Origin: Verpa conica
Taxonomy: Eukaryota > Ascomycota > Pezizomycetes > Pezizales > Morchellaceae
Direction: 5' to 3'
NCBI GenBank assembly: GCA_033030425.1
Contig: JAUFSD010000013.1
Span: 1,116,001-1,180,000, forward strand
Length of the DNA stretch: 64,000 nt
Position numbers and translations under genes: made by a program. How positions within the stretch are numbered: position 1 is the first letter of the stretch; the number at the start of each line of letters is the position of its first letter. Positions 1,174-59,104 of this stretch are shown one piece after another. The notes beneath the pieces were generated by a model, which saw nothing but the letters and a program-made list of their open reading frames with translations, had not been told where the DNA came from and ran no database searches.

Positions 1174-1848
1174 GGATATGCAAAAAAAAAATGGGATGGA
1201 AATGAGCAAATTGGTGGATATTCTTAGGGAGTTATGATATCTTGTATGAACGAGGAATGATTTTTAGTTTTTTATTTTAGTTTTCACAATTAGTTTTCAC
1301 AAAGAAAAACCAAAAAATTCGTACAATTCAAGCTGATTTATAAATTATAATCATAAATTATCACTCGAAATACTATGAGCCTCTAAGGTCTTGGTTAGAA
1401 TGTCGTGGGAGGGCTTTTTGTTTATCTATTTTTCCATTCCCTTATCTCGGGGTATATCCTCAGAAGAACAGCATTCTTAGGTGGTGTTTAAACTCAAAGT
1501 TTATCTCACTCATAATTTTCAAATCAGATCTAAACCATATAAAACCAGATTTATTGTTTTAAATAATAAACACCAGAAAAATAAAGAAACCCAATCCGTC
1601 ATTTGCTCATAACATAAATATCAATCAAAATCACTTAGTACCCCACCCACCCCACCCCCACCGCAAGTTATAACATCATCGATCATGATTATGATTCGAT
1701 AGAAAAGATAAAATAAAAGTATCCCACTCGCTTTAGCCCATACCCCCCCCCCCCCCACAAGCATCTTCGGCATGCATATATACCAGGGTGTATATTCTAA
1801 CCTCTAGCAAGAGCGGAGAAAGTTTCATGGGAAAAGTTTACGAGGCTT
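1174..1848. other. Convergent intergenic spacer
   Basis: AT-rich spacer between two genes that converge here. It contains a C13 tract at about 1745-1757 and one copy of the gapped CGAGTGAY motif. No coding signal was found. Confidence 0.7.
1352..1367 (-). promoter_or_regulatory. Gapped motif copy 1 (CGAGTGAT-N5-ATG)
   Basis: Spacer aattt, then ATGA. It lies in the spacer between two convergent genes, so it is not in a promoter. Confidence 0.75.
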
Positions 1849-4421
1849 TCAGCGGTCCCAATCGGCATTAGGATCATGGTGCTTCATAGACTGCCGAGGG
1901 GGCTGTTGCTGCGCTGGGGCCCCACCACCAGGGCCGTTAGGTGCCTTACCTGGCTTGCGTGTGCGAGGAGGTTTCTTTCCTTTTGCAGACTGGGATTGTG
2001 TAGACTGGGATTGTGTAAATTGGGCTGGAGGTGGTTGAGCTCTTGCCGGGCCTGTTGGACCTCTTACGGGCTCAGGTTGGACTCCTTGGTGGGGGTCCCA
2101 TGGTCCATTATCATTCTGCTGCTGTTGGGGAATATCGTCATCCCAGCCGCCCTTAACAGGCTTATCATTCCAGCTGTCATTGGCGGGGGTACTATCATCC
2201 CAACTGCCTTTTGCGGCAGAGTTATCATCCCAATCACCCTGACCATTTACCGCAACGCCTCCCTCGTTCAGTTGATGCTGGGGCGGAGCTTGTCTAGGCT
2301 GAGCTGGAGGGTTGTATGCCCTTTGCTGCTGCTGCTGCTGCGGCGGCGGCTGTTGTTGCTGTTGCTGTTGCTGCTGATGCTGTTGCTGCTGTTGCTGCTG
2401 TTGCGGCTGTTGATTCTGTTGCTGTTGCGGCTGTTGCTGCTGTTGAGGCTGTTGCGGCTGTTGCGGCGGTGGCGGCTGCTGCTGCCGTTGTTGCTGCGGT
2501 GGTTGTTGCTGATAGTTTTGCTGCTGCTGCTGCGGTGGTGGTGCCCTCGCAGGAGGTCTACCTTGAAATTGGTCATTGAGCCGCCCATATTGACTCTCTC
2601 CGCCACGACCGCCACCACGACTGCTACCTCCTCCACGACCTCCACGACCTCCACGACCTCCACGACCACCCCGGCCACCACTCTTACTCGACAGCATCGC
2701 CTCTATGATCTCCGGTGGGATCACCCCCGAGACGGGGCTGGGTGCTGCAGCAGGCGCCGAGTTTGCAAGAATACTCTTACCACCATCCTCTGTCAGGCGC
2801 TTACGAACCTTGATCTTCAGATAGCCTAGTCCTAGTTTCCTCACTTCCTCATCCTCCTCCTCCTCTTCCTCGATAGATGAGTACTCCTGGGTAAAGCTGG
2901 GTTCAAAATCCTTAGTCGAGACAATCCCTGCTGGTGCAAAAAGATAGGCCTCTCCTTCATTGAGTGCAACAATGCGTTCCAAGAGTGCGAGTGCATTGGT
3001 GTCAGACTCCACAGCTACGGCTGCCAGATGACGCTTCATGAAGGAGAGCCATTCGGGGGATGTGAAGCGGTGTGCTATGATGATATTGCAGAGGTCGAGG
3101 AGCTTAGGTGAGATAGTAGGTTCTTGGGTAGAAATCAAGACGCGAGTTGCCAGATGGCGCTGCTGGCGGATTACTGACAGGAGATTATCTGTGAGTTTTT
3201 GGGCAGGGGAGGTTGCGGTCATGTACTATTTGTGTTAGAAGCTTGGAGACTTAGAAGAAGAGAGAAGTTTACCTTATGAGCTTCATCAAGAGCAATAACA
3301 CGTCCGTATTTTACATCTTTTTCTAAGAAAATTCCCACGCAGATATCAAACAGTGCACACGCACTCGCCTCATCTACAAACGGGTCGCTCAAATCAACAA
3401 TCGTAATCACTCCGGGTGTGAAATCCCACACCTCTTCCACGTCTTCTCTCATCTCCAAAAAGCTCTCCAAGATCTCTAATCGGAGAGTCAATGGGCCCTT
3501 TTGCATTGGTGTTAAGTCTGCATTCAATATCATCTCCCTAAATAGCTTATAATCGAACCCTGACCCATAAATACTACTCGCAGTAGCCAATTCTCTGAGA
3601 ATCTTTCTAACATACTCCATATATAGAGGTGGATGATCGCTGTTTTTGTCGACTGACATAAGGGAAAGCATGCGCTCTATGTTGAGATCTGATTGGCGTA
3701 GCTTCAAGGGCTTGACAATGAGATTCTGGGAGGCGATACCAGAATAGAGACGGGACATCTGCGGGTAATTTGAGGAGGAAACGAGGATGCGGACGGGCAT
3801 ATGGGTAGCTAGGTAGGCAGCTTCGCAAGGGCGCAAGGCATTGGCGCTGTTGTTTATATCAAAGTGGAATACCATCGCAGTGAGTGGATTCGGGAGAGAC
3901 CCAAGTACCGGAGCTTGAACAAGCATGTTCTCTATACATCACAAATATCAGCAATTGCTTTAATTGAAACGGAGGACAAGAAAAAACAAACCGAGTATAC
4001 AAGCCAGCGTATGGCTTTTACCAGACCCTTGCAAACCGCATATAAACGCGGACCATGGAGCATTCCCGTTCAAAAAGATTCGGGGATCCCCTTTCTCCTC
4101 TGGCCTTCTCCCTCCGCCAAAATAACCACTGTCATCGCTGCGGTCACCGATATCGCTGACTCTCCTTCTTGTTTCTGGATCTACGAGCTCTAGTGCGCGG
4201 CCAAGGAGCCCGTACTGGTTTAATGCAGAGGGGCAATTCTTGTCCACGAATAGTCCTGCAGCTGCGGTGAAGACAGGGGTGGTTATGAGAGAGTGCTTCT
4301 GAGACGCGAGGGAGCCATCGTGGAAAGAACCTGCACCGTTAGGTCCCGAGGGAGATTCGCCGAGAAGTGAGAGCTGCGAATAGAGGTTTGCCGCCAAATT
4401 GGCGGAGAAGCTACGTGCCAT
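1849..4421 (-). CDS. P-loop ATPase with RGG and polyglutamine C-terminal tail
   Basis: Three exons on the minus strand: 4421-3992, 3931-3273 and 3225-1849 (introns of 60 and 47 nt, GT-AG). They join in phase to 821 codons plus stop. The ATG at 4421 is the first one in frame. Walker A (GLQGSGKS) is at about residues 129-136 and Walker B (GRVIALDEAH) at about 353-362. An STQEPTISP segment after Walker B resembles the sensor region of HerA/FtsK-like ATPases. The C-terminal third is disordered: an RGG-rich block at about residues 546-572, then a glutamine/proline-rich run at about 595-675, then W-D repeats (GSWDD, DSWND, GGWDD). RGG and Q/P tracts suggest RNA or protein binding and condensation. 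I recognise the fold but not a specific gene. Exact function is unknown; DNA translocase or AAA-like is the best guess. Confidence 0.85.
2316..2560 (-). repeat. CAG/CAA-type repeat coding polyglutamine/proline
   Basis: Imperfect triplet repeat (TGC/TTG units on the + strand) inside exon 3 of the P-loop ATPase. It encodes long glutamine runs broken by proline and single N or H residues. Mixed CAG/CAA codons indicate an older tract rather than a pure expanding repeat. Confidence 0.9.
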
Positions 4422-5542: not shown

Positions 5543-5558
5543 CATATATTATCACTCG
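5543..5558 (-). promoter_or_regulatory. Gapped motif copy 2
   Basis: CGAGTGAT, spacer aatat, ATGG. Its neighbour copy starts exactly 50 bp away in the same orientation. Confidence 0.75.
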
Positions 5559-5592
5559 CTCTACTACACGCCCGATGGATAATGGTTTAAAT

Positions 5593-5608
5593 CATTTTAT
5601 ATCACTCG
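5593..5608 (-). promoter_or_regulatory. Gapped motif copy 3
   Basis: CGAGTGAT, spacer ataaa, ATGA. Preceded by C, giving the preferred CCGAGTGAT form. Confidence 0.75.
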
Positions 5609-7611: not shown

Positions 7612-9008
7612 TGTGTGTAGTGTGTATGAAGTATGATTTTATCTGCTGGAAGAAAGAAGGGAATCTCTTCTTTTATAGGTTCTGCTCACCTCACCAGGTC
7701 AAGTTGAATAATTCCAACCCTGTCTAATGATGAATCACAGATTTTCACCATCTTGAGAACCTGAAAGCTCTGCTAGTATGAGTCTAAATCTCCAAGAGGG
7801 TTCCAATATAACGCTTGAAACCAACAGTCTCGTACTATATCCCCTAGGGTAAGGGTAATATTGAGGATAGGAGATGGATTGGCCAACGGAAGTTTCAAAG
7901 GGGTCTGGCCGTGCGGCTTCCTGCATATTCTCGATCTTTTGCCGCTGAAACTAAACCCTAGATCAATCTAGGACTATAATAAGTGAGATTATATTTAGAT
8001 GAGATTACGGAAGAAAGAAACGATAAAAATAGAAAGAAAACCAGGGGGGGTGAAGAGGCAGGAGATAACTATGAGGGTAAATTTCAAGTGCTCCATTGGT
8101 CCCCTAGGAAGCGCCTTCTAGGGCATATTCCATATATCAGAATAACCCTCTCTGGTAACACCTACCCTAACTTCATCTAACTATATCTGCACGGTACCCT
8201 CATTGAGAAGATATCTCCCAAAAAGAAGTTTTATACAGTGACGAGTGATGTGCAGTGACGTAATGGGGACTCATAGTACATATGTACCAGAAAATAGCAT
8301 ACAGAAATCCGTAATAGCGCTGCTACCTGGAATTACTTATCTCAGAAGAGATGCAATTAAACATCGATAACAATAAGAATAAGTTCAACCTATTCATCCT
8401 TAACCACCACTCTGAAGTAGACCACCGGTTCGCCCCGTCTTGGGAACCGACCGGGACTCTCACTATGTAGTTCATAGATGTACACTTTGAGAGCAAGAAA
8501 AAAAACCCCACTCCACACCAAGTCAACTTATCCTACATATATAGAAACTTCAAATTTTAACTAAACTCACATGCCAAGAGTCTGAGAATATGTAGAAAAC
8601 CGAAGGGGCCTTATTGCGACTCCGTCAGTAACAAAGGTTATCTAGAAAGGAACTCTGATCCACTAGGCTTATTCATACGAAATAGAACTTAAAGGTACAA
8701 AAATACTATATCTCCTCTGGCAGCTTTACCTCGATACTTTTTCGAAAAATCAAAATCAAACCTTTTTGGAATTTTTATTTTACAAACACCCCTTATACAC
8801 CATAGAAATGATCAAACAAAAGCAGAGATCTCTATAAGTGACACTTTCGAAAAGAAAACTTCAAAACAATAGACAAGAAACTAAAACTCAGTAAGGGGGT
8901 TTGAAAAAGAACCAACAACTGGTAAAGGCATGAAAGAATAACCCTATTGGTAAAGAAAAGACTCCTACACAAATATCTCAAGTGTCTCCACACCTCAACC
9001 ACCCTACC
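7612..9008. other. Intergenic region
   Basis: Two spurious-looking ORFs of 63-67 codons (7735-7926 and 8323-8526, minus strand) and one gapped-motif copy at 8242. AT-rich from 8550 to 8990, where the 3' UTR of the TM9SF gene probably ends. Confidence 0.6.
8242..8257 (+). promoter_or_regulatory. Gapped motif copy 5
   Basis: CGAGTGAT, spacer gtgca, GTGA. The GTGA unit recurs three times in this stretch. Confidence 0.7.
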
Positions 9009-11340
9009 TTAGTCGGCCTTGATAGCCCCATAGATCCTCCTGACAAATGCATATGTACTCAAAAACCCAATCGTCCCCACCAACAATCCATAAACCACAC
9101 ACGCCAAAAACGAATAACTAAAGAATAGCAGCCCACTCACAAATCCCTCGATGTGCAGCTTTGTAAGGAAGTACCAAGCGCTATACAGGAATATCCAGAC
9201 GGCCGATCCGGAACCAACGAGGAATGAACGCCACCACCAGTTGTAGTTCTGTGAAAGAGTTAGTAAGCGGTAACGAGAGGAGAGAAGAAGGGAGGGGCAA
9301 ACCTCGGAGCAAAGCTGGAAGTAAGTTGTGACAATGGTAATCTCAATTACGGTAACCACATTGATACCAGCAATGAGCGCTAGGAACCCATACATGTAGT
9401 AGTACCCACTCTTGTCTTGCCAGAGACTCTTGAATACGAATAGAAGTTCGATGAAGATAACCGCAAAAGGGATCAGGCCACCCATAAGCACTGCGGGAGC
9501 AGTACGGAGGTACCACGGTTGTGCAGGGATTTGTCGGGCGATCATGGTAGTGCGGGTTGCGTGTTCCCAAGGTGCCTTACGGAATCCAAGGAAAGAGCCA
9601 ACGAAGACGAGAGGGAGAGATATACAGAGCCACATCAGAACGAGGGCGATGAGAGTGCCAAAGGGGATGGCAGTGGAGGAGGCTTGCGCCCAGACAAATA
9701 AGTTGAGAATGAAAACGGAGCCAAAAAGAAAGCCAGGGAAGAGAAGGGCAGTCATAAGGGCGTTCTTCTTCCACTGCTCTCCCTTGAATGTCTTATACAC
9801 CCGTGTGCTGAAGTACCCAGAGAACACACCAGCAAACACAAATAAGAACAATCCGAAGCTAATGAACCCACCACGATAGCTAGGGTTCAAAACGCCAACC
9901 GCACTCAACACAATCAGCGCTATAGCCATTGCAAGTAATTGGACTCCGCTGCCAACAATAGGTGCGAGCAATCCTCCAAGTCCTGGTGGTCTAAACACAT
10001 CTCCATGTACCAATTTCCAGCCTGTAATATCGTCAAGAGATTCGTCCTCCTCTACGCCTTCAGCCGCCGCCGCCGCTGCCTTCCTCTTCGACTCCGGGTC
10101 ACTTGCCCCACTGTCATTGTAGTTTTGGATGTCACGGGAGAGAGTTCGCAGCATGATAATTGCAACTACAACGGTCAATAGCATTGCGATGACAAGCGAG
10201 TTGACGATTGCGAGCCAATGAACAGAGGCAGACTCCTCATCATTGACAAAGTAGAGATCCCATCGAGAGGCCCAATCAATGGTATTATCCTCTTTCCAGT
10301 AAACAGAATAGGTATACGGGATAGTCATCGTCTTGCCATCATCTTTGGTAGGTGCTTTACCATCCTCGGTTGATTGAGGTGGGATATAGAGTTCGAGCGG
10401 TTTCTGACCCTCGAGCGAGTCGGCACATTTCCCCGGTGGCCCAGCAATTGACTTGGTATAGACCTCAAAAGCAACAATAACCTTACGGTTAGGATCTTCG
10501 GCGGTCTTGCGCCAGCGGAGAACGAGAGTAACATGGTTGTTGATAAATGCTTTCTACACCTATATGTGAGTATGAGACCAAAGTTCCAAAGAAACGATTA
10601 GACTAACATCGTTTTCGTAAAACCCGAGCTTGAATCCAGCAGCGTAATACTTCTTTGTCTTATCAACCGTGACGAAAGAAGTCGCACCCGGAAGATTATC
10701 GACGATCCTGAGTGACTGTTAGTCTAATTTCCTTGACATCTCTACACCCAACCAGATCCCGCCAGAGCTCCCGTGCATTCGAGACATCCCTGAGCCGAGC
10801 CCTTCTAACGAGCAAGGTAAGACAAAAATAAGGGCACCTACCATTCAACCACATAACCACCTCTTACCAACTCCTTCGCTCTCTCCACCGCACCTCTATT
10901 CACATCCCTGTCACAGAGGTGTTTACACACTTCATCCTGCCCCACTGACAGCTCATAGTCACTAATCTGTATCCGGTCACCCCTCAGGACTTCACCTAGG
11001 TTCAACGCAATGGCTCTCGACGACCCGAATCTCGACCCGAACCCGTCCTTGCTAGCGGGGCAGACAAACGGTTGCTCCGAGTACGCGTACGGCAGTTGTG
11101 TTGTCGGAGATGTAAGCTTGTTTGTCGATAACGGGATCGCGTCACCATCCTTATATGAGCGGATAGACCAGCCTGAGACGTATTTCAGATTTCGTCAGCT
11201 ATAGGACTTTGTGATATTACAGACCGAGAGCGGGTGAAAGGGTGAAAGGGGCTCCAGCACTCACCGGGAATGTAGAAGGCCGACGAGAGTGGCACCCCCG
11301 ATGCCGAAAGGAATAACAGCAGACTTCTTGAGAGCCGCAT
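9009..11340 (-). CDS. TM9SF / EMP70 nonaspanin, apparent frameshift
   Basis: Nine-TM endomembrane protein of the TM9SF family, acting in Golgi/endosome sorting of membrane proteins. Minus-strand exons: 11340-11265 (signal peptide MRLSRSLLLFLSASGVPLSSA), 11172-10843, 10707-10608, 10553-9303 and 9248-9009. The mature N-terminus starts FYIPGWS, as in the family. The lumenal domain precedes about nine membrane helices, and the C-terminus ends in a K-x-D form (IKAD). In exon 2, translation stays in family register up to AKELV. The conserved GYVVEW block before IVDNLPGATSF then lies one base out of frame. So one base is missing near 10861, or splicing instead uses donor 10867 (GTAAGA) and the acceptor before 10715, which restores frame with 659 residues but drops the conserved block. 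Confidence 0.88.
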
Positions 11341-12489
11341 TTGGATGCTATCTCAACCAAGAAAACAGTAGCCTTTGTTGATATTGAATCCGAGATAGTT
11401 GATGGAGGAGGGGGATGTCGAAATCAGAAATCTGGTGATAGGTAAAACGTGGCCCGGGAGTGAGGCTTAAAGAGAGGCTTACGTAAACATGGCTGGGCAA
11501 GCCTAATTTAGCATCGAGTGATTAGATGTGACAAAGTATATGAATCAGGAAACAAGTAAGAAAAACCGAGGGGCATATGATATACATGTATGTATCTATG
11601 ACAAGAGTAGGAAGAGCCGACCAGTGAACTTTTGCAGCTCATTTTGGGTATTCCTTCCAATATGTGGCTACCCAGAGTTTACTACGCCGCCCAAAACTCT
11701 GGAGTTAGAGAACCCATATAGCCAACCCCATAATATGACTGTATTTCCGTTATTGAAGTGTAACACAAATATACATCTACCAGTTCTCAGGATTCACCTA
11801 TCCTAAGGCCACGGTAAACAATGTGGTGAAGATACATGTAGTACACATTGGATTTCCACTCGCCACATTTCTGGCCCTCTCTCGGGGGTTTACCCCTGGG
11901 GATGGTCAGTAACATGATTAGCAGAGCCATAGACAATAGAACCGATATCAGGCCTTCTATTTGCTATTGATCTTGACTAGCCCATTCAATTCCTCCAGTA
12001 CAAATCCAACAGCAGCTACTTGAGATCTCACTCGCCACCTGTCTTGGCATAAGCAACCTAAAACCTTATACCCACAACCCCACACAAAACAACGGGGAAC
12101 TTAACACGTCTATATATATTACATCGTGAGATATGGCATAGTAAATGCTAGACTCCTTCCTCATTTCTAGATCGTTCGCTTATTACTACTAATACGCGGA
12201 TGCTCGGCTGCGGCGGCTGGTTGAGGCGCGGTAAACTGATCACCGGTTCGCCGACCCGGTCAACACCAAGCTCACCGTTGTTTTATGCCGCTTGTTCCCT
12301 TTTCTTTAGAAGCTTGATTCTTCATATTAAAATAAACCATATTCCCCCCGATCTGCATTGAAGATGAACGCTGGACTTTCAATACTGTATACTACCACTG
12401 CTATTACAATTACTGTCACTACCGCTGTCAATCTACAATATTATCACAACTAAGATATACCGAGCAGGACCAATACCAAAACCCCAAAT
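11341..12489. other. Divergent intergenic region (TM9SF / CFEM)
   Basis: Promoter region shared by the TM9SF gene (minus) and the CFEM gene (plus). It holds one gapped motif at 11515. A small ORF at 11528-11806 has no recognisable content. GC rises at 12190-12270, with no RNA gene identified. Confidence 0.6.
11515..11530 (+). promoter_or_regulatory. Gapped motif copy 6
   Basis: CGAGTGAT, spacer tagat, GTGA. It lies 175 bp upstream of the TM9SF start codon but in the opposite orientation to that gene. Confidence 0.7.
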
Positions 12490-19708: not shown

Positions 19709-22700
19709 TTAATTATCCTTCGCCATCTCCTCTTTGCTCTCAGCTAACGGCCCCCCCTTTCCCACCGGTGGCGTCGGCATCCCCACTGAACTTCCCCTCG
19801 TTGAGCTTTCCGCCAAACTTGCACCTCCTGCTCCACCGCCTCCTATCCTCTCTACCGTGGTAGCAGAGGACACATCACTCATCGGTCCACCAGGTTCTTC
19901 TCGTATCGTTGAGCAATACGTCTTCAGGACATGTTTCAGCTGCGGCCGTCGGATTGGCTTCGCGAGGAAGTAGTTCATTCCCGCGTCTAGACAATCTTTC
20001 ACGTTGCTCTCCTCGGCGAATGCTGTGAGAGCTACGATGGGTGCTGAGTAACCCATGTGGCGGATAATCTTTGTGGACTCGATGCCGTCGAGATTAGGCA
20101 TTTGTATATCCATTAATACTAGGTGAAAGCTTTTGCCTTGGTTCAGCGCCTCCTTAATTCGGTCAACCGCTTCCCGACCATCTTTTGCGATAGTGACATC
20201 TATGGATCATGAATTAGCACTCGATTCACTGACTAGAGCAAAATAGTACATACCATAAATCTCTTCCAACTTCAACATCTTGAGTACAACCTCCTGGTTA
20301 ACCTTGTTGTCCTCTGCAACCAATACTCTTATCATCCCACCATCATCCTCTGCTGCTGCTCTTGCTGCTAGCTCTTCAATCTCCTGGCTCGGGGTCTCCG
20401 CACCACTTGGTGGCATACTGGGTGCAAAAAATGGTTGACTCAGCCCAACTAGTCTTGGCTTGTTATTCTTGCCGAAACTCACACCACTCTTTCCAGACTT
20501 TTGTGATGACGTTTCTTGGATTGATTGGTGACTCCGCTCGCCCTTTTCGGCAGATGCGGCGGAGTTGGTGTGGGTGTGAGTTGCACCATTGATGCTGTTC
20601 GTCCGGCTCAGATTCACTCGCTCCCGCTCACTCAAGACACTCGGCGTAACCTCTTTGACGAACCGTAGCGGAATTCGCATTGTAAATGTTGTCCCAGCCT
20701 TTTCCAGACTCTTTAATTCGATGGTTCCCTGCATCAGTTTCGCAAGCTGGAGACAGATACTCAAACCCAAGCCTGTTCCACCATACTTCTTACTCAACCG
20801 TAAATCACCCTGAACAAACGGCTCAAACACCTTCTGTTGTAACGCCTCTGGAATTCCAGGGCCTGTATCTTCGACTTGGAATTCAAACATGAAGGTCTTA
20901 CTTCCGGCTGGTGGGGAAGTCGGGCGGGAGGGGTTATTTATTTGATCTTGGAGCTTTTCTGTGAGTGTTGCATGGTGGTTTAGGGGTGAAGCACTAGGTG
21001 TGGATGTATCTTGAGAGCTGATGTTGACAGTAGGTGTGGGGGGTGAGGTAGCAGTCGGTCCAGGGCGTGATGTACTACGGTTATTATGCTTTGTACCGTT
21101 TCGAGACGAACCGCGGCGAAGAGGACCATCTACGGGTGCGAGAACAGGGAGAATCTCTTGGAGGAGGTTCATCCTAATTTGTACCGCGCCGTTTTCACTA
21201 AAATTCGTTAGAAACATACAAAGATAAGATTGTGAACCCAACTTACGGCGTAAACTTCAGGCTATTGCTAACAAGATTAATCAATACTTGCAATATTCGA
21301 TTCGAATCTCCCCAAAAAACCATCTCTTTCACCCTCTTCTCGGGGCTAATACTAATCCCTAGATCAATGCCAGACTCCCTAGCCTGATTCTCAAAGATTG
21401 CAACAATTTGCGCGCTCACGTCCGTCATCCTAAACTCTTTCTCATCCAGACTAATGGCCATATGACCGACCTGGTTGCGGGAAAAGGTTAATAAATCTGT
21501 AAGGAGATGCAATAACAGCTCCCCAGACTTATACACGATCCCCAACGACCGCTTGATTTTCGGAATCTCCTCTTCCTGCATACAGACTGCACACATTCCT
21601 AGAATTCCATTAAGTGGTGTTCGAAGCTCATGCGTAATGTTAGCCACAAACAGTGACTTCGCTTGATTCGCAGCCTCAGCAACCTTCTTCTGTTCCTCTA
21701 ATTCCTTCGTTCTCTCAGCCACGCGCTCTTCAAGGTTCTCATATTGCCGAACAAGCTCCTCTGACATCTCATTAAAAGTTCGGGTCAAATCAGTCAATTC
21801 ATCGTGAATTAAATGACGACGCTCGCGAACTTTTCCAGGAATCCTAAACGCACGTCGGCGTTGTTCCTCGCTCCCATCACCACTACCTTCACCACTCTGT
21901 GAACTGTCCCGACGCTGGGCTCGCCGGCGGATATACTCGCCCATTCCATAGAAGCGGTTGCGGCCACGTTCTTCGTCGTCCTGGATAGCAGCGTCCGGAG
22001 TAATAGCATCATGACCTATGGATTCCACGGTTTGAGACGACTCGCTTCCAGATGGGGTGTAGGAGGGAGGGCGCATACCTATTTTGACGGTCAGTATCAA
22101 GTAATCAACATGGAAAAAAAAAAGAAGTTAAGGATCTTACTTTTTTCAGTTGCTCTTTTGAGCCTAGTAATTGGCTTGACTGCAAAATGGGCAATTGGAC
22201 ATACTAGTATAATCACGACAGCAAATGTACCAAATACTGTAGCAATTAATATGTTCCGCAACTTATTAATAGGTTGAAAGGCTTCTCCTTTGTCCTGCTC
22301 TATCAGCAGTGCCCAGTCTGCAAGGTTCTTGACCACATCGACAATTGCGTATCTACCCACTCGAGAGTCAGTAGCGTTCAAAATCACACAAGATCACTCG
22401 CTTTGGCGGATCAGAACATACCCAACACTAACTTGCCGCCCTTCAGAATTATATGTATCCAAATCACTCCCGCCCCCATCACCATCATCCCCAGCCCCAT
22501 TCGCTCCCCCAACTCCATGCTCAAACACCCTCCGTACAGCATTATATTGACTCAGCTTCCTAACTTGACCCACCAAACTAGTATCTCTCCCTGGCGGAAA
22601 CAAATACCGAAACTCATAATCCCCAATAGGGGTATTGGCTCTCTTCTCCAATCCCAAGCTCCTCCCAAGCAACCCCGCCATTGCAGCCACCGCACTATGG

Positions 22701-27421: not shown

Positions 27422-27437
27422 CATGAGTAATCACTCG
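27422..27437 (-). promoter_or_regulatory. Gapped motif copy 8
   Basis: CGAGTGAT, spacer tactc, ATGA. More than 3.6 kb upstream of SLN1 and with no nearer gene on that strand. Confidence 0.75.
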
Positions 27438-28593: not shown

Positions 28594-28609
28594 CATTAGG
28601 TATCACTCG
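28594..28609 (-). promoter_or_regulatory. Gapped motif copy 9
   Basis: CCGAGTGAT, spacer accta, ATGA. Sits beside a 14-bp direct repeat (gtacagatgggtta) at 28612 and 28684. Confidence 0.75.
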
Positions 28610-28611
28610 GA

Positions 28612-28697: not shown

Positions 28698-29295
28698 AGT
28701 TATTGGATATTTAAATAAATATATATCTAATTCCTTGGTTGATACATAAATTACTTCTAGAAACTTCAACTGGTACTTATTTCTACATAACAGGCAAACT
28801 CCTCCCTTTATATGTTACTTTATAAAGATTAACGGTCAGGAGCTACTTGTACCCGAAAACACATTTATAATGTCTTGTGCCCAGGTATATAGAGGTCACA
28901 CTTTCTCCACATCTTTAAGTTCTACCGTTACTAGTATTCCGAGACTCGGAAGACGTCTGTACCCGTACTCCTAGATCTCACCACGTGTACCGGCTGTCTG
29001 CTGATCAAGACATGTAAGAGTCATAATAATACTAAAAAATAAGGACCCGATCCTAGGGGTCGGGGACTACTCAATGGGAAAAACAAAATTAAAACATTCA
29101 GGAAAGCAAAAAAAAAAACGAGTGACTTTATACGAGAGGACTCTTTTTTCATTACGACCACCCAGGCCCACATACTCTAAGAAGTCATATTTAAAGCCCC
29201 GGTTACAAACAGGTTACGTCAGATCGAAGGATAACTGCGAGTGTATTGTACAAGGTCTTGAGACATGGTGATACAAAAGTAAATAAATATACATT

Positions 29296-29311
29296 CATAG
29301 GAGGTCACTCG
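29296..29311 (-). promoter_or_regulatory. Gapped motif copy 10
   Basis: CCGAGTGAC, spacer ctcct, ATGA. One of two copies with C at position 8. Confidence 0.75.
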
Positions 29312-29769: not shown

Positions 29770-29785
29770 CGAGTGATACTTCATG
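29770..29785 (+). promoter_or_regulatory. Gapped motif copy 11, downstream of a TATA-like box
   Basis: CCGAGTGAT, spacer acttc, ATGA. A TATATAAG sequence lies about 35 bp upstream (about 29733), so this spot may be the start of an unrecognised transcript. Confidence 0.75.
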
Positions 29786-33569: not shown

Positions 33570-33585
33570 CATAGATCATCACTCG
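33570..33585 (-). promoter_or_regulatory. Gapped motif copy 12, methyltransferase promoter
   Basis: CGAGTGAT, spacer gatct, ATGA. It ends 120 bp upstream of the methyltransferase ATG, in gene orientation. Confidence 0.78.
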
Positions 33586-37040: not shown

Positions 37041-38655
37041 TGGAGTGGAAGATGAGATATGACCTTTTCTTATTTATTTTATTTACAGGTTGATCCTGTG
37101 GTTGGGATGGAGTTGAGGGATAGTGTGTGGTGGTTAGATATTGTTTAGTATGTATTTAGTTGGAGTGTGCAAATAACATGTCTAGTTATGATTCGTATTT
37201 GCTCTATTTTTTCTCTGAGTGATCGTAGTTAAATCGGTTCGGCTTACTCATGGGGCCAAGCTGGTACCACCGGCTCTATATATTTGGAGTAATAGATGTT
37301 TTGAATGATGGAAGGCCAATAGTCTAGACAACATGTAACCGAGCCAATCCCCACAGTTTCACGGGATCCAAGGCCTGAGGTGGGTTTGATCATAGTACAT
37401 ATATTAGTTATAAACACAAGTAGAATTTATTTTATAATATATATGCTCTCGAAGCTATAGATCCTTGAGAGACGGAACTTAGAATCACTTGATACCTCCC
37501 GGATAATATATACCTTATTATTAAATATACGCCTATTGGGGAAGAAAACACCGAAAAGAACTACACAACGTACGTCTTTATTGTGAGTATTAATAGTCAA
37601 CTCCTGTGAGTGTGAATTAAGCCTTTTGGTACCATGATTCTGACGAGAGACGGACATGAGTACCAAATATCCCTTAACAGAATCGGACTAGACTCAACTA
37701 CTAATGTTGATGGGGTTTATTTTTAGTATGTAATCTAGTCGTCTTCTATATCACGGCTTGGGGTGTTATTATGCTTTTCTGTTTTTCTATCAGGTGGTTT
37801 GGTTATTATGGAAGGAAAGGACGGGGTTGATATGATGTTATGGACTATTTCGGGGTGTTTTTTTTTTCTAGGGGGCTTTACTGGGGGCTAAGTAGTGCCT
37901 TTGATTGATAACTTCAGCTGCGTCATAACTTAACGGTGAAGACGTAAGATTGGGCATCGCTAAGACCGTTGTTCAACTCCCGCTTCGGCGTTGGGCTCAA
38001 AATGGACGTAGCTCTTGTGAACTATTTTTTATATATATATATTATACTAATTTGTCCTACATATCCCATAACCCGGTGAAGCTGCCCCTTTTCCGTGGGG
38101 GCCAAAATTCTGTGGCTAGACTCAGGCTTCTACTATTTTTCATAGGCTACTATATGTTGAGCCACCGCCACTTTGGGGGGGCAGCATTTTCCACCGGATT
38201 ATGGGATACCTTAGTTTTTTCTGATGCTATAACCCTGTGTTGCATGCGCTTTGTACCTGATAGGCTGGGTGAAAACGTGATTGATGTCTTACATATACCT
38301 ACTATTACAATAGGCAGATCATAGTTTCCTGTTATAGGAATAACTTAAGTATACTAGACTGCATATACCTTGCTGAATAGAAAAACAAAATACAGACCTA
38401 CTAAGACGAGTGATAGTCCATGTGCCAAGCCATGAGTACCCACATATAAGCACCGAGATCAACTCTTTCCAACCCTTGTAAACCCGCTCCAATCCGGCTA
38501 GTAGATCCAACCGCAAGCACTAGAAGGGGATTGTCATCTACATCTCGGGACTCCTGCAGCGGTATTGCCGATTAACCGAATATGACTCCAAATACCCTCA
38601 AGAGCTGGCTTCATAAATACGTTGGACAGCTCGCGTGCCAATCCACCAACTAACA
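37041..38655. other. Intergenic region, 1.6 kb
   Basis: No supported gene. ORFs at 37427-37666 and 37950-38324 have no domain and low-complexity content. One gapped motif at 38407. Confidence 0.6.
38407..38422 (+). promoter_or_regulatory. Gapped motif copy 14, MFS gene promoter
   Basis: CGAGTGAT, spacer agtcc, ATGT. It lies 234 bp upstream of the MFS start codon, in gene orientation. Confidence 0.78.
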
Positions 38656-40334: not shown

Positions 40335-42421
40335 TCAAGCTTTTATAGCCCCTGGACTGTCTAGCTGTATAGTTGTATTTATAATCTTGACCTTGGCTGA
40401 ATAATTAGTATTACTCTTCACTCATCAAAAAAGAAAATAGTTTCATAAGCACGTATTATCCTATAGGTGGCGGCTGTAATCATTTAAAATGTTGTTCTCT
40501 AGCTTTAGATGGCAGGTGCGGAGGAGTTGCAGATCGTACCGGTGAGCGAACGACGGTTTTAGGTATAAGATTTCCAAACAAGGCTTTGTACAGCCAATTT
40601 CGGGCCTGTTGTATCGAGTGATGTTCCGTGAATATGAGTCCTTGTAGTATTCAAGGACCAATACCGGTGCTATATCCACTTTGAGAGGGTCGCGCTTATT
40701 TGTTGCTGTACTACCAAAGTAAAGGGGAAAGTGCCCACTTTCATGCGCTCCAGATCTCATATATTACCGTAATACTGCCTGATGGATTGTAGCTATTAAA
40801 ACATATAATTCTGTTGAGTTGCTGGTGCCCCCAAGCGGAATTATTCCTTAAACCGTCACACCCAACTGTCCGGGGCTAGTCTTTCAATGATATACCCCAA
40901 CCACCACACTTCTAGATATTACAGGAATAAATTCTCTAAACAATGATGATTATAAATTCAATGGCTTATAGCTAGTGGCTGGGTGGCAAGGCTAGAAAAT
41001 CGGGGATTGTGGCAAAGACCGGTCCCGCTCGGGACCGTTGACGGTCCAAGGGATACTACTGTATAAACTGGCGAGACTCATAATGGCGCTAAGACGTCCA
41101 AACAAAGTGTGGCTAGATGATCTTACTATAAATGGGTTTGCAGCACTGTCTTTGCCACTTGCTGCACCAAGGGAGAGATTTCACTCTCGCTTTTCTTTGC
41201 TCACTTGGGGTAGGGACTTCTTATTTCAACCTCTTAGCGTAATTATGAGTCTCACCAGTTTATACGGTACTTAATTCTGAGTCTACTATGGTCTCGATTC
41301 CTCCCCTCCATCTTTTGGTACCCGAAAAGGCCTAGTTCAAGCCGCCACAAATCTCTATCTCGATACGGTACCCCAGAAAATTAAAAGACATACTCCCGCC
41401 ATGCAAGATCGAGACATTTATGAGACACGCCTATGTTAATGCACGGTCTCAACATATCCTAGCCTATTCTAGGGAATATTTCCCCTAAATCATTTATTAG
41501 TAAATAGTGCTTCTAGATACTTTCCCGGGTGAAAAGCGCGGTTGAAATAGTGTTTGACACCCTGTTAGCCTGTGTAGATGAATAATTCCCCTGACCTGCG
41601 CCTCTAATAACCCTATCATGCATAGCCGGCAAGCGGTAAGCCGCCATGGGGCTGGGCACGAAACTAGGGTAGCCTAATTTAGAAACCGCAGAATGCTCTT
41701 TCCAATGGCGCTTGTCGTGGCACTTAGTAACCGCTTTGTCACCAGCCTACCTCTACAAGCACAAGCACAAGCACAAGGCGTACGGCACGGGTTCCTGACA
41801 TTAGAAGAATCAACCTCCTGGTGATAATAAGATTGTTCCCTTATATAATATCCAAGCGCTCGATCTGTCAGCTGTCTGAGATACTTACATAGTCGCGTTA
41901 GCCACGGGGAAGGATGAATTAATAATTCCTCTGTAGAAGCCAAGTGTCTATGCGATTAGGATAAGCTTTAAATATAGCCACGCCTCTAATGCATGAGAGC
42001 CCATATGCGTACTGCGGGATAAGCACCTTAAGGTGTCGACATAATCACTTTCGATTGGGGTTCGCTAAATAGGCCGTAGAAGCACTGAACTGTGCAGTGT
42101 CGTGGTAATAACTCAAACCGCGGTTCAGCCGCACGCCACAAAACAATTGTGTGGAATGAAGCCGCAAGTGCTCCAAAAAGGCTGTAGAGTCTTTGACTCC
42201 GCCTGCCTACATGCACACTCGAGGCACAGAGTCATACACAGTTGGATCAAGACCTAAAAAAGAAAAAAAAATAAACAATGAGAGGGGAAGAAAAAAAAGA
42301 AGATATAACTACTAGTCCCACCTCCGGGAACACAAACCAAACTTTCCAGCGAATATTCCTCCACCTCGTCAGTTCACTCTTGCTGAACTTTCGTATTTTC
42401 TTAACTCAGAAATTTTATACA
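40335..42421. other. Intergenic region, 2.1 kb
   Basis: No supported gene. ORFs of 62-99 codons lack recognisable content. Contains a (CACAAG)n run at about 41755-41776 and one gapped motif at 40615. Confidence 0.6.
40615..40630 (+). promoter_or_regulatory. Gapped motif copy 15
   Basis: CGAGTGAT, spacer gttcc, GTGA. About 280 bp after the MFS stop; the next gene on this strand starts 1.8 kb away. Confidence 0.7.
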
Positions 42422-43590: not shown

Positions 43591-45752
43591 ATATTTTCTT
43601 TCTTATTCTTTTCTTCATTTTTTTGTTGTTAGGAGGGTTAGTGACTGAGGAGGGAGGGTCTTGGTTATGGAGTTCTGATTTTGGACTTGGTTTTAGGACG
43701 GTTTATCCTCTTGCTCCTAGCGCTCGCGGGGGGGGGGAACAAGGTTATTAGAAATGATATAATGAGTCTTTGTGAATACTGTTGGTCTGAATATAGGCAT
43801 TTTGTGTAAGTATGATGCTATAAATAAAGAATAAGTGATGTATGATAAATATTCCAGCACAGTTCTTCCCCTCAAAGTTATGTGATCCCTAAAGAAGTCC
43901 TATTTGGGTTTTTAATATTAAGATGAAACCTCCCCTACACCCTTTTTTTAGTCATGTTTAATAGAGAACTAATATAAACCTCTCGTCAATAGAATATATA
44001 TCCATCCTAGGAAGCCCATAGAGCTATGTGACAGTATACTCAGAAATCCTAACACCCCCCCCAGCTTGTACATAACCCAAGCCATAGTGGAATGCGTACG
44101 GCCAGTGCAACAGTTGTCTTCATACCACCTAAACTTCGATATACAAATATCTCAGCCATTAATCAAAAACCATAGTAAGTAAGGTTCCAAAGAATAACCA
44201 CTAGTCAATCCTATAGCGGGTTACCTTACTTGTCGGGTTAGAAAAAACACCCATACATCTATACAAAATTCGAATACAACTACACAATAAGTAATAAAGG
44301 TCTGATAGAAAAGAAATAAAGAGATACCTACGGTGCTACGCAGTGGATATACGGCTGGGAACGAGACTAAGAGATGTAGGCATTCTAGAAGCAACTATCC
44401 CCCAAGATCTAATCATATTTCGTTATCTGTAGTTTTAGATCAGCTGCATTTGTCATACCGTGAAAATTAAAAAGGAGCCCCCAACACACCTCAAAGGTAC
44501 AAAGCCTACTGATACTTTCAGGTGAAGATGGCCTACCGGTATACCGGGAAGCCTAGTCGCACTTATTCTGGGACAAGTGAGAAACGGTCCGCGGTTCAGC
44601 CCCTGGGAGACACTTTTTTGTTGTTTTTTATTTAAAAAAAAAAAAGGCAAGAACTAAAACCACAGATAATCACTCGATGAATGAATGAGAACCACGCGCC
44701 CACTAGGCCTAAGCCTTAAAATAAAACAACATAAACATAAAAATAAAAAATAAAAAAACAAAGTAAAAATAAGGTAAATAATAAAATAAATATAAAAAAA
44801 AACACTCTCCTTTTGTGCTCTTCCCCTGTTTGTCCTATGTAACATCTCTCTTACTCCCTGCTCTCCCCTAAGTCCTCCCACATCTCTCCCCACCCCCCAC
44901 ATCTCTCCCCACCCCCACCCTTCTTTTTTGTCTTCTTATTCTTCCGCTACTTCTCTCCTACCTCCTCTTCTACGAACTACTATGCTTCTCTTTCTTTTTA
45001 AGTTCTCTCCAGAGGAGGGCAGCCCACATAAAATTCGATAAATTCCCATAATTTCTTAGGCGCTCCCAGGGATACAAATCTCCCCTATCTTACTTGTAAG
45101 TAGTCCACTATTTCCTCCGTGCAGACTAGAAAGTAATTTTTAAGGGGCCTAATCTCCCAGTGATGCCAGATGGATTCTAGTGTATGCTTAACATAAAGTG
45201 GGAGGTCTTATATTAAAAGTGCTATACCTATTGGAAAAATATAGGTTATATCTAATTCATAGAAATATCTTCCACTACACTAGATATCCACCTTCATCTC
45301 ATTAGGGAAGTCAAGTATTTTATAGGAGTGATGAACAATTCTAAAGCCAGTATGGTCACATTCTTCTCCAAGGCGTAGTATTTACTCGGTAAACAGCTAT
45401 ATTTCTCTACATCTAGATTTGTATCAAGGAAAGAAACTTCCACAGAACGGATTTGAGTGTAGGTTTACCACTGGAAGATATATAATACTAGAGTTCATAT
45501 AGTTTCTAGAGGATCTTCTAGGCTAGTGCTAGGATTAGAGAATCAGGCCCAGTATTCGGGAAAACCAAGGCCAACATCCAAGAAACCCCCCTAGCTTTTT
45601 CCATTCTATCAGGATAGCAAATCAATGCCTATGTTCTATCGCAAAGAAAGAAAAGAACTAGACCTCAAAATACTAAAAACGAAAAAGTAGTATCATCATT
45701 AACAAAGTACTGTCAATCATCAACCTTCTCAAACTACCTCTACCATCCATCG
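43591..45752. other. Intergenic region, 2.2 kb
   Basis: No supported gene. ORFs at 44453-44650 and 44654-44902 (minus) are low-complexity or short. An AT-only stretch is at 44715-44800, and C-rich repeats (catctctccccacc twice) at about 44880-44920. One gapped motif at 44661. Confidence 0.6.
44661..44676 (-). promoter_or_regulatory. Gapped motif copy 16
   Basis: CGAGTGAT, spacer tatct, GTGG. Preceded on the motif strand by a short ATTC tandem run. Confidence 0.68.
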
Positions 45753-46896: not shown

Positions 46897-48107
46897 GATA
46901 TCGAATAGCAGTGTTTGTTTTCCCGTTATCCAGTCCGGATACCCCCAGAGTAAAGTAGGAGAGGTGGGGTTGAGGGGGTGGCGATAGTTATCGCGGTGCC
47001 TGATATTCGGAGTTGAGGTTGACGCGTCTACCCATATTCGGCATGTCGCGTGACGTCGAATTCCCCACTTCAGCCGCAGCTCACAGAATGTCACTCGGGA
47101 TACTACTATACTGGCAAGATTATTTGTAGAACCACCACAGAACGGATTGAATAGGTTCCCAGTCCCCCATTGCTTTTATCTCAAGTTCTTAAACAGCTCT
47201 AGTTTACCATTCACCCTACGAATATAGCTGAAGAGATGTACATACTTGCCCACTAAACGTTACTCAGCACCTTGATAATTCCGGCTTCCGAGAAACTTTG
47301 TGTCAATAACACAGCCGATATGGAACATAGCTTAAGTAGCTCCCACAAGTAGTTTAAGTACTCGCGCCGAAGTAACCGATCGAAGTCTACCTGCCCCCAT
47401 ATCGTGAATTAGGTATGACTTACATGAAATCCTCATGCACTGCCTTCAGATTAACTTTTTTTTTTGAGCCGCATTGCATAACTGAGCGCCAAACGCGGAG
47501 AGAGAGGCTATTGTGGAATAACTAAACTGCGTACCCTATACCTAAACTAGGACTCCCAAAACTATGCAGTTTCTTCAAAACCCAGAATACCTAAAATTAT
47601 ATTTGGTTTCGCCTTCCTACGGGCCTATATATACCCCTCTATTGTTCTGTAATAAGTAGCTGGAAGTTGGCTTAAGGCAACTGGGTATGGAACCTCCCGT
47701 ACCAACTCCCCCGCCCATTATACATACTCAGACTAGCAATGTTATCCAATGTCTCACACAGGACGTGCACTACGGCACAGCCCTGACGATCATAAACTGA
47801 GACATAGCCTAACCGTATTTCTATCCTCCTGAGCTTGTTTTGCTAAACCCAACAGGTAGCATTGGTCCGAGCAGGCGCCACATACGGGGGAGTATCGTGA
47901 AATCTAGAAGAGAGAGAGGGAGAGATGTGGTACATGTCCGCTCGGGCTCCACGCATCAGAAAGACTGATTAGGACTGTATATCCCTCACGCCTGTTATGA
48001 ATAAATACCGCGCTGGTCGCTCATCTACTCCTCGTCTTCGTTGCCGTCCTCGTCCTCGTCCTCGCTCAAGATCAAACTAGTCCTACTCCTGTCAAAAGTT
48101 CAAAAAA
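46897..48107. other. Divergent intergenic region
   Basis: Promoter region of the RRT8-like gene (minus) and of the small secreted protein (plus). A CCTCGT/CCTCGTC-type pyrimidine run lies at 48033-48064, in the leader of the latter. One gapped motif at 47082. No other gene. Confidence 0.6.
47082..47097 (-). promoter_or_regulatory. Gapped motif copy 17, RRT8-like gene promoter
   Basis: CCGAGTGAC, spacer attct, GTGA. It lies 186 bp upstream of the start codon, in gene orientation. Confidence 0.75.
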
Positions 48108-52913: not shown

Positions 52914-53507
52914 AGGGCTATCTTTTAATGTGTTGAGTTATAGGAGAGGGAAGGAAAATAATTTTGGAAATGAGGGAATATATTGCAGAGAGGAGTATAT
53001 GCGGTTTGGGGGGGGGGGGCTATAATACCTTTATGACTTGATGATAACGCTCCTTTTTATGGCTCCTGTATTTTTCTTATTATTTTTGTCGATATGATTG
53101 AACCTACATAATTCATTGTAACACTATCTCTACAAATACCTTTCATAGATCAGTTTCATAGACTGTAATGTGCATCTTTGGCGAGTGATCATTGATGGCG
53201 CGGTTACTAGCATTATGAGTAATCGTAAGCAGGGGTTTTAGTAAGTCTTCATTGTGTCTAACAACGCCCTTTATAGAATTTTTAATAATCTCTTTCAACT
53301 GGAGACTAGAGTCACAATCGTACAGAGAAAAGAAACCTGTTAAACCAACAATCATCTAATAGATATGCTCAATAGAATCCACTTCTCTATACAACCACTG
53401 TCTTCGAAGCGAGTGGGGGCGATCTTTATCCAAATAAATATAAATTACGCACCCCCCGCGCACCACATCACACCATACTTATCACCACACTACACTACAC
53501 TACAGCC
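52914..53507. other. Intergenic spacer
   Basis: Holds a G10 tract near 53010 and a gapped motif at 53182. A minus-strand ORF at 53143-53355 is not supported. Confidence 0.6.
53182..53197 (+). promoter_or_regulatory. Gapped motif copy 18
   Basis: CGAGTGAT, spacer cattg, ATGG. It lies 311 bp upstream of the 53508 ORF, in its orientation. Confidence 0.75.
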
Positions 53508-54005: not shown

Positions 54006-54866
54006 TTGTGACTTTGTCGTGTATTGTTATATTTGGGGGTAGCTCGGAGGTAGATATAGTATTGGGGAATCCATATCACTCGACTCTGCAGAGAAAAAAA
54101 ATAATCCATCCTTAGGGAGATTTTCTTATTTACTCTCTTGGGTCTTAATAAAAAGCGATTAGTAACGCTGTTTAGCTATATACAGTCCTACTTTTAGCCC
54201 GATTTTAATGTTTTTTTCTGGGTATATAAAAGATAGACCATCCACTTCTTGGCAAGGTATTAATAGTAGATCATAGTCGATCAGTTACTTATATATCACG
54301 TGGTCTTGTTGAAAAGGAGCGAATGAGATTTAGAGTAAGTTTCTTTTCTCTTTAAGAGACTTTAAGATACAGCGCAAGATATGGGCTCATACCTAGTGCT
54401 AGATAGGTTTCCTAGTTTTGAAATATCTCACGTGTTAATTTGTTAACTACTATTACTTCTCAGGGCAGACACCTGTGGTAGGAGTCTTCTGTAGTAAGTA
54501 GTCAATAAATTAGAAGACACATCGACGGCCTTTTTTCTGTTCTATCTTATTCGATCTACGATATATACCTAACTATGCCCAGTATGTCTCTACGAGTGCT
54601 TCATGTAACCCTTTTACAGTCAGAGATAAGTTTTCTATTCTATAAAAAATACTTACAAGGCTCCCTAGAGAGATCTATCAAACGATATACAGCTTTCTTA
54701 AACCCTCCAGTCTCTTCTATGGAGATCCGCTCCTGCGGGTAGTGGTACTCTAGCTAACTGATTAAAAAAGACTTTACCACAGTTGAAGGCTATATATAAA
54801 ATGGATGGCCTACCTCTATACCCCACCGTACCTCTCACAGTGACTCCTAAACCCCCTAAAAAAAAG
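54006..54866. other. Spacer between the paralogues
   Basis: AT-rich. A lone first half-site (ATCACTCG, 54075-54082) without the RTG partner lies 70 bp after the upstream gene. Confidence 0.6.
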
Positions 54867-57022: not shown

Positions 57023-57642
57023 ATTGGTGGTTATTTTTTGTCGTTGTTGTATCGTCAAAGTACGAGGATGTTGAATGTATAGTTACGGGTGATGTATGTT
57101 CTGAGTGTTGTAAATTACTTGCACAGGAGGTAGGTTAAGCGGTATATATAAACCCTTCTTTCAACTTTGTTTCGTTGTTGATATTTGTTTCAAGACATGG
57201 GTAGTTTCAACCCATTATGACATATATTTCGAGTTACAAGAGCCCCCTTATATGTTTTTTTAGCTTTGGGGTCTAGGCTACTGAGACGATTAAAGAGGAG
57301 GCCTGACTGAAGATATACTAGTGGATCTTTGAAACCCCGAAAGGCTTCGATAGTAACAGGAGAAGCATGTTAGAGACTTATACATCCACTTACACTATAA
57401 ACTACATGTGATACAGGTGGCCGATGGCTTATAGGCTCTAGATAGAACGTCTTGTTAATAATCTTTATAATACAATTATATATAACTGAGATAAACAAAG
57501 AAAATTTACTGATAATATAAATCACTACAATTAACGACTCTCTAACGTATTCACCATAGTTTTTATACACGGGTTTTCTTTACACCAATGTAACAGTCAC
57601 TTGCCGAGTGATACGTTATGAATACCTACTCAACCTTGGCAC
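57023..57642. other. Divergent intergenic region
   Basis: Promoters of the LPMO (minus) and the next gene (plus). A minus-strand ORF at 57370-57570 is AT-biased and not supported. One gapped motif at 57605. Confidence 0.6.
57605..57620 (+). promoter_or_regulatory. Gapped motif copy 19, next to a start codon
   Basis: CCGAGTGAT, spacer acgtt, ATGA. It ends 22 bp before the chosen ATG at 57643, in gene orientation, so it may lie in the leader or at the transcription start. Its ATG opens a different frame. Confidence 0.78.
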
Positions 57643-58589
57643 ATGCACGCCAAGAAAACAGCCCTAACCCAGCCGTCGATCATTCGCGGATTTCAACCTC
57701 CAAAACGGCCGAAACTGTGCCTGCATACCGCACACTCAATCGCCCGGGAGTCTCATCTAATGGCCGGACAGACTCGTCAAGCGCTTGCGCAGCTTCAGCT
57801 GCACCTCGCACCCCCCCCACGAAATATCGCCGAGTCCCGTACAATCTTGCGCGCATTAAGAAAATTCGGAGAGATCCAAATGTTCAAAGTCCTTCGGGTA
57901 TGTCCCCCCCCCCCCGCATCCTTTCAATCTTAAGCTTACCCACTAACAAAAAAAATATATATATATACTCATAGTTTGAAGAGACAACAAAGGAACTTAC
58001 TCCTAAAGCGCACATAATCTTCAAGTCCCAGCGGTCAGCTAATGACCTCATGGCCGCTTCCCCGTTCTTGGTCCCAGACACAAACATCACCGTAACACCC
58101 TCTGTGTCAATCTTCAATCACCCGCAATATATAGGATATGCCTCCGCCCAGCACTACATCAAGAGTCGGACGTTACTCTCTCGACGCAGAAGCAGCGTTA
58201 TAGAAAATCATGAGGTTGAGATACCAGACTTATCGACACGGATCGGATCTGATGGTAGTTTGGAACCTTCGACACAGTTAAGGGAGATGAGGTCAAGATT
58301 GTTGGTACGGTATTCGGGTGGTTTTCTTTGCTTTAAGGACCTAGAAATGAGGATAGCTTGGGAAGCGGAGAAGAAGCAGCAGTTGAGAGATGAGAATGAA
58401 AAATTAGCAAGGGGGGAGGAAGTAGATTTGTCGGCAAAGTCGGCTGAAGAACTACATAGTGAGCAGTTAGGCACGATCCAGGATATATTGGGTGATCTAG
58501 GTGCAGAGGGGAATCAGAGTGCACAGGGCAACCAGAGTGCACAAGATAATCAGAGTACAGAGGAGATTAAAGAGAAACCTAAGGAATAA
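57643..58589 (+). CDS. Conserved fungal protein, possibly RRM-like
   Basis: Two exons, 57643-57897 and 57975-58589, with 289 residues. The donor after CTT CGG is GTATGT; the acceptor is catag; phase 0. The stretch RNIAESRTILRALRKFGEIQMFKVLR, then HIIFKSQRSANDLMAASPFLV about 25 residues later, resembles the RNP2/RNP1 layout of an RNA-recognition motif. The N-terminus is basic with few acidic residues, which would suit mitochondrial import. A long charged helical C-terminus (AWEAEKKQQLRDENEKLARGE) and three short repeats (NQSAQG, NQSAQD, NQSTEE) finish it. I do not recognise a named gene. Confidence 0.65.
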
Positions 58590-59104
58590 ATAAGAGGATA
58601 TATACGCTACTTATAGAATCAGGTTCGCCTGAGTCCTTTTCCGCATTCATATTTACGGATACATAAGGTCAACCTGACGGATACACCACCCAATCCACCC
58701 CCGGTAATGAGCATATCTTTAGTGAAATCTAGATATATATAGATAATTTATAGTTAGAGGCTAAGATCTGGTAGAGCTATACCATGTAACATATTATTAT
58801 CATTATAGTAATACCCTTAGCTATTTACAGTCAAAATACCGAGAAATTCTTAGCTTACCATCACCAATGTACATGTTGACCCAGAGAAGTAGATAAAACA
58901 ATACGACTATTATTTATAAAACTCTTCCAATTAAAATTACCCCCAATCCTCATTCAAAGATAGAACTTAATGCTGTGAATGGAGCTAATAGTCGAAGCCT
59001 CTTAATAGGCTGCTGACTCTAGAGATACTTAGCCCCAAAGAGGAAAATTGAAACTCCGAGTGATAAAACATGTTTAAGAAAAAAAAATCTTTAGCATCCA
59101 ACGT
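58590..59104. other. Spacer upstream of 5S rRNA
   Basis: AT-rich, with no ORF. Ends in a gapped motif copy and the 5S gene. Confidence 0.6.
59057..59072 (+). promoter_or_regulatory. Gapped motif copy 20, 5S rRNA upstream
   Basis: CCGAGTGAT, spacer aaaac, ATGT. It ends 32 bp before the 5S gene, in the same orientation. Confidence 0.78.

Follow-up and report, generated by a model that had tools for sequence, protein, structure and literature searches.

A 64,000-nucleotide stretch of Verpa conica DNA (the window; GCA_033030425.1, contig JAUFSD010000013.1, positions 1,116,001 to 1,180,000, here G000:C13:1116001-1180000 in an assembly of 45,838,881 bases on 25 contigs, 45.84 Mb) was found to carry 18 exact copies of a split motif, CGAGTGAY-N5-RTG, which recurs thousands of times in the genome, mainly between genes, and is also present in repeats at chromosome ends. 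The motif looks like the landing site of a chromatin-organising protein. Our reading, to which we give a probability of roughly 60%, is that its extended form CGAGTGAY-(A)N(H)YY-RTGA serves as an asymmetric site of high stringency for one abundant protein resembling the general regulatory factors of yeast and acting in a boundary-type manner. From the counts and positions given below we infer that a protein binds, that it is a single protein and that it acts on chromatin or on the boundaries of transcription. It is probably a general-regulatory or insulator-type protein and not one specific to promoters.

Both strands of the window together gave 18 exact matches to CGAGTGAYNNNNNRTG, spanning positions 1352 to 59072, and 100 dinucleotide shuffles of the window gave a mean of 0.09 and a maximum of 1. 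A first-pass annotation, made from the sequence alone, had counted 22 instances of CGAGTGAY, 18 of them followed by RTG five bases on (12 ATG and 6 GTG), and had estimated about 0.1 copies in a random 64 kb; the recount was identical and the shuffles bear out the estimate. Its two copies with one mismatch were also recovered (29119, with ACG, and 54082, with ATT), as was the mostly A base after RTG (13 of 18 copies). The two other instances of CGAGTGAY without RTG, at 24241 and 39563, do not match and are not near copies. The density in the window was about 2.4 times the genome mean, with 18 copies where about 7.5 would be expected from the genome-wide count of 5,360.

Across the genome the motif was counted against a control, the same pattern read backwards, leaving uncounted the stretches that read N. 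CGAGTGAYN5RTG occurred 5,360 times, balanced between the strands (2,644 and 2,716), against 94 for the control, and addition of the final A gave 4,396 against 28. With up to one mismatch the count was 8,112 against 666, which leaves roughly 7,400 sites genome-wide. The 8-mer CGAGTGAY alone was found 7,725 times against 1,963; this excess, about 5,760, nearly equals the count of the full motif, to which the 8-mer therefore mainly owes its frequency. The enrichment was confined to a spacer of five bases. Spacers of 0 to 4 pooled gave 267 against 102, or about 53 per spacer compared to 4,396 at spacer 5, and spacers of 6 to 15 pooled gave 868 against 182, or about 87 per spacer; among 100 listed matches of this last class, many were canonical sites that had another RTGA after them by chance. 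No second spacer class was seen in either range.

The motif also emerged from a blind scan of all pairs of 4-mers with gaps of 0 to 20 in 129 kb, in which coding DNA and tandem repeats were masked and the expectation was the product of the 4-mer frequencies. The top three dyads were CGAG-TGAT (32 versus 3.5 expected), GTGA-N6-GTGA (23 versus 3.3) and CGAG-N9-GTGA (18 versus 2.4), and all three are pieces of CGAGTGAY-N5-RTGA. Base composition was taken from 136 sites, 96 listed on contig C1 and 40 in a sample made up of the window and 19 pieces of 10 kb from places fixed beforehand (a twentieth, L017, reads N), together 254 kb, or 244 kb without the end of C1. Base 8 was T in 105 sites and C in 31, base 9 was A in 61, bases 12 and 13 were pyrimidines in 103 each, and base 14 was A in 94 and G in 42. 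The first-pass annotation had described the five spacer bases as varying freely, which the biases at bases 9, 12 and 13 contradict. Our working consensus is CGAGTGAY-A-N-H-Y-Y-RTGA, asymmetric and 17 positions long. Outside positions 1 to 17, 44 aligned copies from the window and the 10-kb pieces shared only a weak preference for a pyrimidine at position 18 (29 of 44). The site was also stringent: the 244 kb held 30 exact copies with RTGA and 14 single substitutions in all at positions 1 to 8 and 14 to 16, with C1 to T and A3 to G tolerated three times each and every other change seen once or not at all. The last base, position 17, was looser, with 10 single-substitution copies. CGGGTGAY-N5-RTGA, among the better tolerated variants, occurred 159 times genome-wide against 6 for the control.

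None of the 40 copies in the sample lay in predicted coding DNA, which made up 47% of it, and none of 44 did so with either the earlier gene models (29-32% coding) or the final ones, whereas 5 of 11 instances of CGAGTGAY without RTG were in predicted coding DNA. Predicted gene spans, which held 43% of random points, likewise contained none of the 40; as the copy at 22385-22400 is intronic, 39 of 40 outside genes is the fair figure. Predicted genes flanked 27 copies on both sides, in 11 tandem, 11 convergent and 5 divergent gaps; for random points between genes the shares were 51%, 27% and 22%. With so few sites, the surplus in convergent gaps does not reach significance. There was no clear orientation bias in 43 site-gene pairs within 1.5 kb (26 on the same strand, 17 on opposite strands). 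Spacing of the sites was near Poisson, with a mean of 1.67 and a variance of 2.06 over 24 blocks of 10 kb.

A second line of evidence comes from the chromosome ends, of which 13 left and 4 right contig ends were read. A subtelomeric repeat with a copy of the motif was present at 8 of the 13 left ends (L009:1-2500, L029, L030, L031, L032, L034, L037 and L038), and all left-end copies were in one orientation, pointing away from the contig end. At these eight ends 12 of 22 spacings between neighbours were 347-370 bp, which would be close to two nucleosome repeats; the outermost pair was 141-162 bp apart at three ends, and spacing was irregular at two (L037 and L038). When units of the repeat were sought by their flanks alone, with query flanks taken from motif-bearing units, all 22 units with support from both flanks had the exact site. 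Of 13 places supported by one flank only, 3 had the site (one of them already counted) and 10 lacked it, several of these being short or shifted matches. The ten fixed columns of the motif were 100% identical in every pair of the 22 units, and the Y and R columns were 59% identical, varying within their class only. By comparison, the spacer was 59% identical and the flanks 62%, with 6 of 168 flank columns invariant, and when the same ten-column mask was moved more than 16 columns from the motif no position exceeded 2 of 10 invariant columns. As in subtelomeric factor sites of the X-element or subtelomeric-repeat (STR) kind, the repeats carry the site and the site is conserved while the flanks drift, a pattern like that of a binding site under purifying selection.

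Thousands of stringent, intergenic sites, as judged by the counts, the substitutions and the positions of 40 sampled copies, are what a general regulatory factor would leave in a genome. Budding-yeast chromatin is laid out partly by a few such factors, whose repertoire turns over between species, according to an excerpt of PMC2897762. In V. conica an abundant protein would bind about once per 6 to 10 kb in the style of the yeast factors, mainly in divergent, tandem and convergent gaps between genes and in the subtelomeric repeats. Once bound, the protein would keep a gap free of nucleosomes, set the neighbouring nucleosomes in phase, and serve as a boundary or roadblock that separates transcription units and counters telomeric silencing. 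The first-pass annotation had also proposed a protein-binding site, which enrichment at spacer 5 only, together with conservation, would support, and which a lack of genome-wide enrichment or extension of the copies into longer homology would refute. Enrichment was found at that spacer only, no longer homology extended into the flanks of 44 copies, and the site was strongly conserved across the subtelomeric repeat copies, all in favour of a binding site as the best explanation. The interpretation as a whole is partly supported, its statements on a free spacer and on Abf1 being the parts that are not, and its suggestion that the protein contacts one DNA face twice is a guess.

Tentatively, the protein might be the basis of a lineage-specific insulator system in morel-like fungi, a single abundant protein that marks the borders of transcription units in all orientations and guards the inner edge of the telomere. 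Its bipartite, oriented site would either have arisen independently of Abf1, Reb1 and CTCF or have been rewired from an Abf1- or Reb1-like ancestor. Neither such a factor nor such a site in filamentous ascomycetes was described among the literature matches listed, and none of the matches listed for CGAGTGA was, by title, about such a site. We know of no boundary element that has been defined in filamentous ascomycetes. Should the site prove to be an insulator, it would be such an element, and the subtelomeric arrays would be a ready test bed. The site is sharp enough, from sequence alone, for capture of the protein, a genome-wide count and dating of its origin.

Several observations weigh against a general regulatory factor or boundary protein. 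The gene models, with 47% of the sample coding, are home-made and unvalidated, and one of the 40 sampled copies (22385-22400) lies in an intron, that of an SLN1-type kinase gene. AT content around 38 sites was at the level of non-coding DNA, with no sign of AT-richness as the cause of the sites, and poly(A/T) tracts within 100 bp were only slightly more common than elsewhere (0.55 versus 0.42). The motif was seen at none of the 4 right contig ends sampled. At L030, about position 1337, a repeat unit with 14 left-flank matches has lost the site, and the subtelomeric units are related by exchange and so are not 22 independent tests. PF04684 (Abf1) and PF21559 (Reb1_MybAD) had no match in the genome; the controls were equally empty, and the missing matches therefore show nothing. 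Finally, predicted gene starts were somewhat close to the sites: among the 27 two-sided sites, 7 (26%, random 17%) had a start within 300 bp and 4 (15%, random 6%) within 100 bp. From these figures some promoter copies exist, and a subset of the sites may have a promoter role.

These same figures argue for a conventional transcription factor that binds the promoters of a very large regulon; the non-promoter copies would then be extra or would lie at unannotated genes. Five window copies 16-210 bp upstream of predicted coding segments are in line with it. We nevertheless regard it as unlikely. The 11 of 27 two-sided sites in convergent gaps (41%, random 27%) have no predicted promoter, the nearest gene end was a 3' end at 59% of sites (random 53%), and arrays of sites in subtelomeric repeats fit such a factor poorly. 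A strong promoter preference was not seen in this small sample of sites, and a promoter-only role for the motif is unlikely.

More doubtful still is a replication-linked site, bound by an origin-associated factor or serving as a fork barrier. Sap1 or Reb1 of Schizosaccharomyces pombe can act in this way, and the sites are intergenic, asymmetric, roughly Poisson-spaced and subtelomeric, as such a role would have it, but they lack an AT-rich element and their number exceeds the origins expected for a fungal genome. The yeast X-core, as described in an excerpt of PMC9531808, holds Abf1 sites together with an autonomously replicating sequence, which would favour a link to replication.

That the copies are pieces of a single transposon or dispersed repeat family is very improbable, even with copies in a subtelomeric repeat and with one CGGGTGAC variant 17-mer found six times among 100 listed places, once at a locus with a Plavaka transposase open reading frame (ORF). 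The flanks of 44 copies had no shared sequence beyond the 17 positions and the weak pyrimidine, so the copies are not one repeat family and that source is largely refuted; in addition, a 174-kb stretch of C1 had no listed plus-strand CGAGTGAY, and 10 kb inside it held a Plavaka ORF and no copy. An RNA signal for transcript processing, localisation or stability, to which the intronic copy and some copies within 300 bp of predicted gene ends might point, is equally improbable, given copies in both orientations beside genes (26 and 17 of the 43 pairs) and others that are subtelomeric or far from any gene.

The exact copies in the window are spread over most of its length. On the minus strand, 1352-1367 lies between two convergent 3' gene ends, 5543-5558 is 50 bp from 5593-5608 and shares its orientation, and 27422-27437, 28594-28609 and 29296-29311 are intergenic, as are 8242-8257 and 29770-29785 on the plus strand. 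The plus-strand copy 11515-11530 is about 0.3 kb upstream of a TM9-family gene (complement, about 9009-11180). Four copies lie a short way upstream of predicted coding DNA, namely 33570-33585 (minus, 27 bp), 38407-38422 (plus, 210 bp), 47082-47097 (minus, 56 bp) and 53182-53197 (plus, 200 bp), and 57605-57620 (plus) is in a divergent gap with predicted coding segments 16 bp and 598 bp away. The copy 40615-40630 (plus) follows a predicted coding segment at a distance of 301 bp, 44661-44676 (minus) is between convergent predicted genes, and 59057-59072 (plus) precedes by about 30 bp a 5S rRNA-like gene (59103-59222, plus strand, 80 bits), the sequence of which appears diverged. The near copies are 29119-29134 (plus) and 54067-54082 (minus), with ACG and ATT, respectively, in place of RTG.

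The remaining copy, 22385-22400 on the minus strand, lies within the SLN1-type histidine kinase gene, which is on the complement strand. The first-pass annotation had placed all copies but one between genes; a single gene-internal copy was indeed found in the window, and it is intronic, because the homologues P0006 and P0013 match the sequence to either side of the stretch and leave the stretch itself out. Read-through at the apparent stop codon of the kinase, which lies inside the motif copy, was rejected, as the homologous proteins show an intron. P0001, an ORF of a relative that enters this intron too, stops after Ile-Glu at the codon matching the window gene; its end is compatible with (A/T/C)GAGTGA, and P0002, P0004 and P0005 end differently. 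This is a weak hint that the site in the kinase intron may be conserved in the relative with P0001. The TM9-family protein was, among the best 120 of 4,299 matches, 89% identical to a Morchella sextelata protein over the whole query, while the next named matches, at 69-75%, came from further Pezizales and some partial proteins without a name reached 88-92%.

Elsewhere in the genome, the 174 kb without a listed plus-strand CGAGTGAY are G000:C1 875314-1049219, where the 10 kb with the Plavaka transposase ORF is L010; the block may be centromeric or rich in transposons, unless some of it reads N. Six of the 100 places listed, from 159, have the variant CGGGTGACTTCCTGTGA exactly, for example C1:894010 and C4:1000044, the latter within L016, which holds a Plavaka ORF, and this variant may be carried by a transposon. 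The telomere repeat unit is unusual, 11 bases long, CCCTAACTAAA on the C strand, from the repeat analysis of L029 and in agreement with the starts of L030 and L033, and it is close to AACCCTAACT, reported for Morchella sextelata in an excerpt of PMC13208314. At the left end of C9, L036:1019-1053 has two adjoining copies of the motif 18 bp apart without homology to the subtelomeric repeat.

Motifs of known yeast factors were counted in a 123-kb non-coding sample against a shuffle expectation. Tbf1/telobox sites of the TTAGGG type resemble the present motif in adjoining telomeres and differ from it in sequence, and they were not enriched in the non-coding sample (ARCCCTAA 14 versus 14.1, TTAGGG 73 versus 92); nor were Mcm1 (114 versus 123.6) and HomolD (4 versus 5.0) sites. 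RTCACRTG, of the Cbf1 type, was found 23 times versus 8.7 expected (2.7-fold), suggesting that the fungus may also use another, weaker general factor, and CACGTG (18 versus 11.6) and TATAWAW (364 versus 200) were also above expectation. The sites of S. pombe Sap1 are likewise long, asymmetric, genome-wide and of several roles, with a different sequence.

Among the closest known systems is Abf1, itself a general regulatory factor, with the Saccharomyces core CGTNNNNNRNGAB (PMC12305957, in excerpt), or RTCAY-N5-ACG on the other strand. Both sites are asymmetric and split by a fixed N5 gap, with the same order of parts and an R-N-G-A second half, and both have subtelomeric copies; the difference is in the first half, CGAGTGAY here and CGT in Abf1. 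The first-pass annotation had stated that Abf1 differs in its second half and order, and compared with this excerpted core it is the reverse, with agreement in both and a different first half. The strict Abf1 form RTCAYTNNNNACGW was not enriched in the 123 kb (1 versus 1.9 expected) and the loose form RTCAYNNNNNACG was mildly so (16 versus 8.9 +- 3.3). For Reb1, with the core TTACCCK (excerpt of PMC12305957) or CGGGTAA on the other strand, the first half CGAGTGA agrees at 5 of 7 bases and the variant CGGGTGA at 6 of 7, and the subtelomeric location is shared (excerpt of PMC9531808), but Reb1 sites have no split second half; TTACCCG was not enriched in the 123 kb (7 versus 11.2), and the motif does not contain the core TTACCCK. 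By its sequence, the motif belongs to neither the Abf1 nor the Reb1 site family, and a different protein probably does the work of a general factor in V. conica. According to the excerpted text of PMC2897762, D. hansenii, C. albicans and Y. lipolytica reportedly lack an Abf1 orthologue, and the repertoire of general regulatory factors turns over across ascomycetes. A precedent is given by the X elements of S. cerevisiae, which hold Abf1, Reb1 and Tbf1 sites and where Reb1 destabilises a nucleosome and has been proposed to act as a roadblock that halts telomeric transcripts, as described in the excerpt of PMC9531808.

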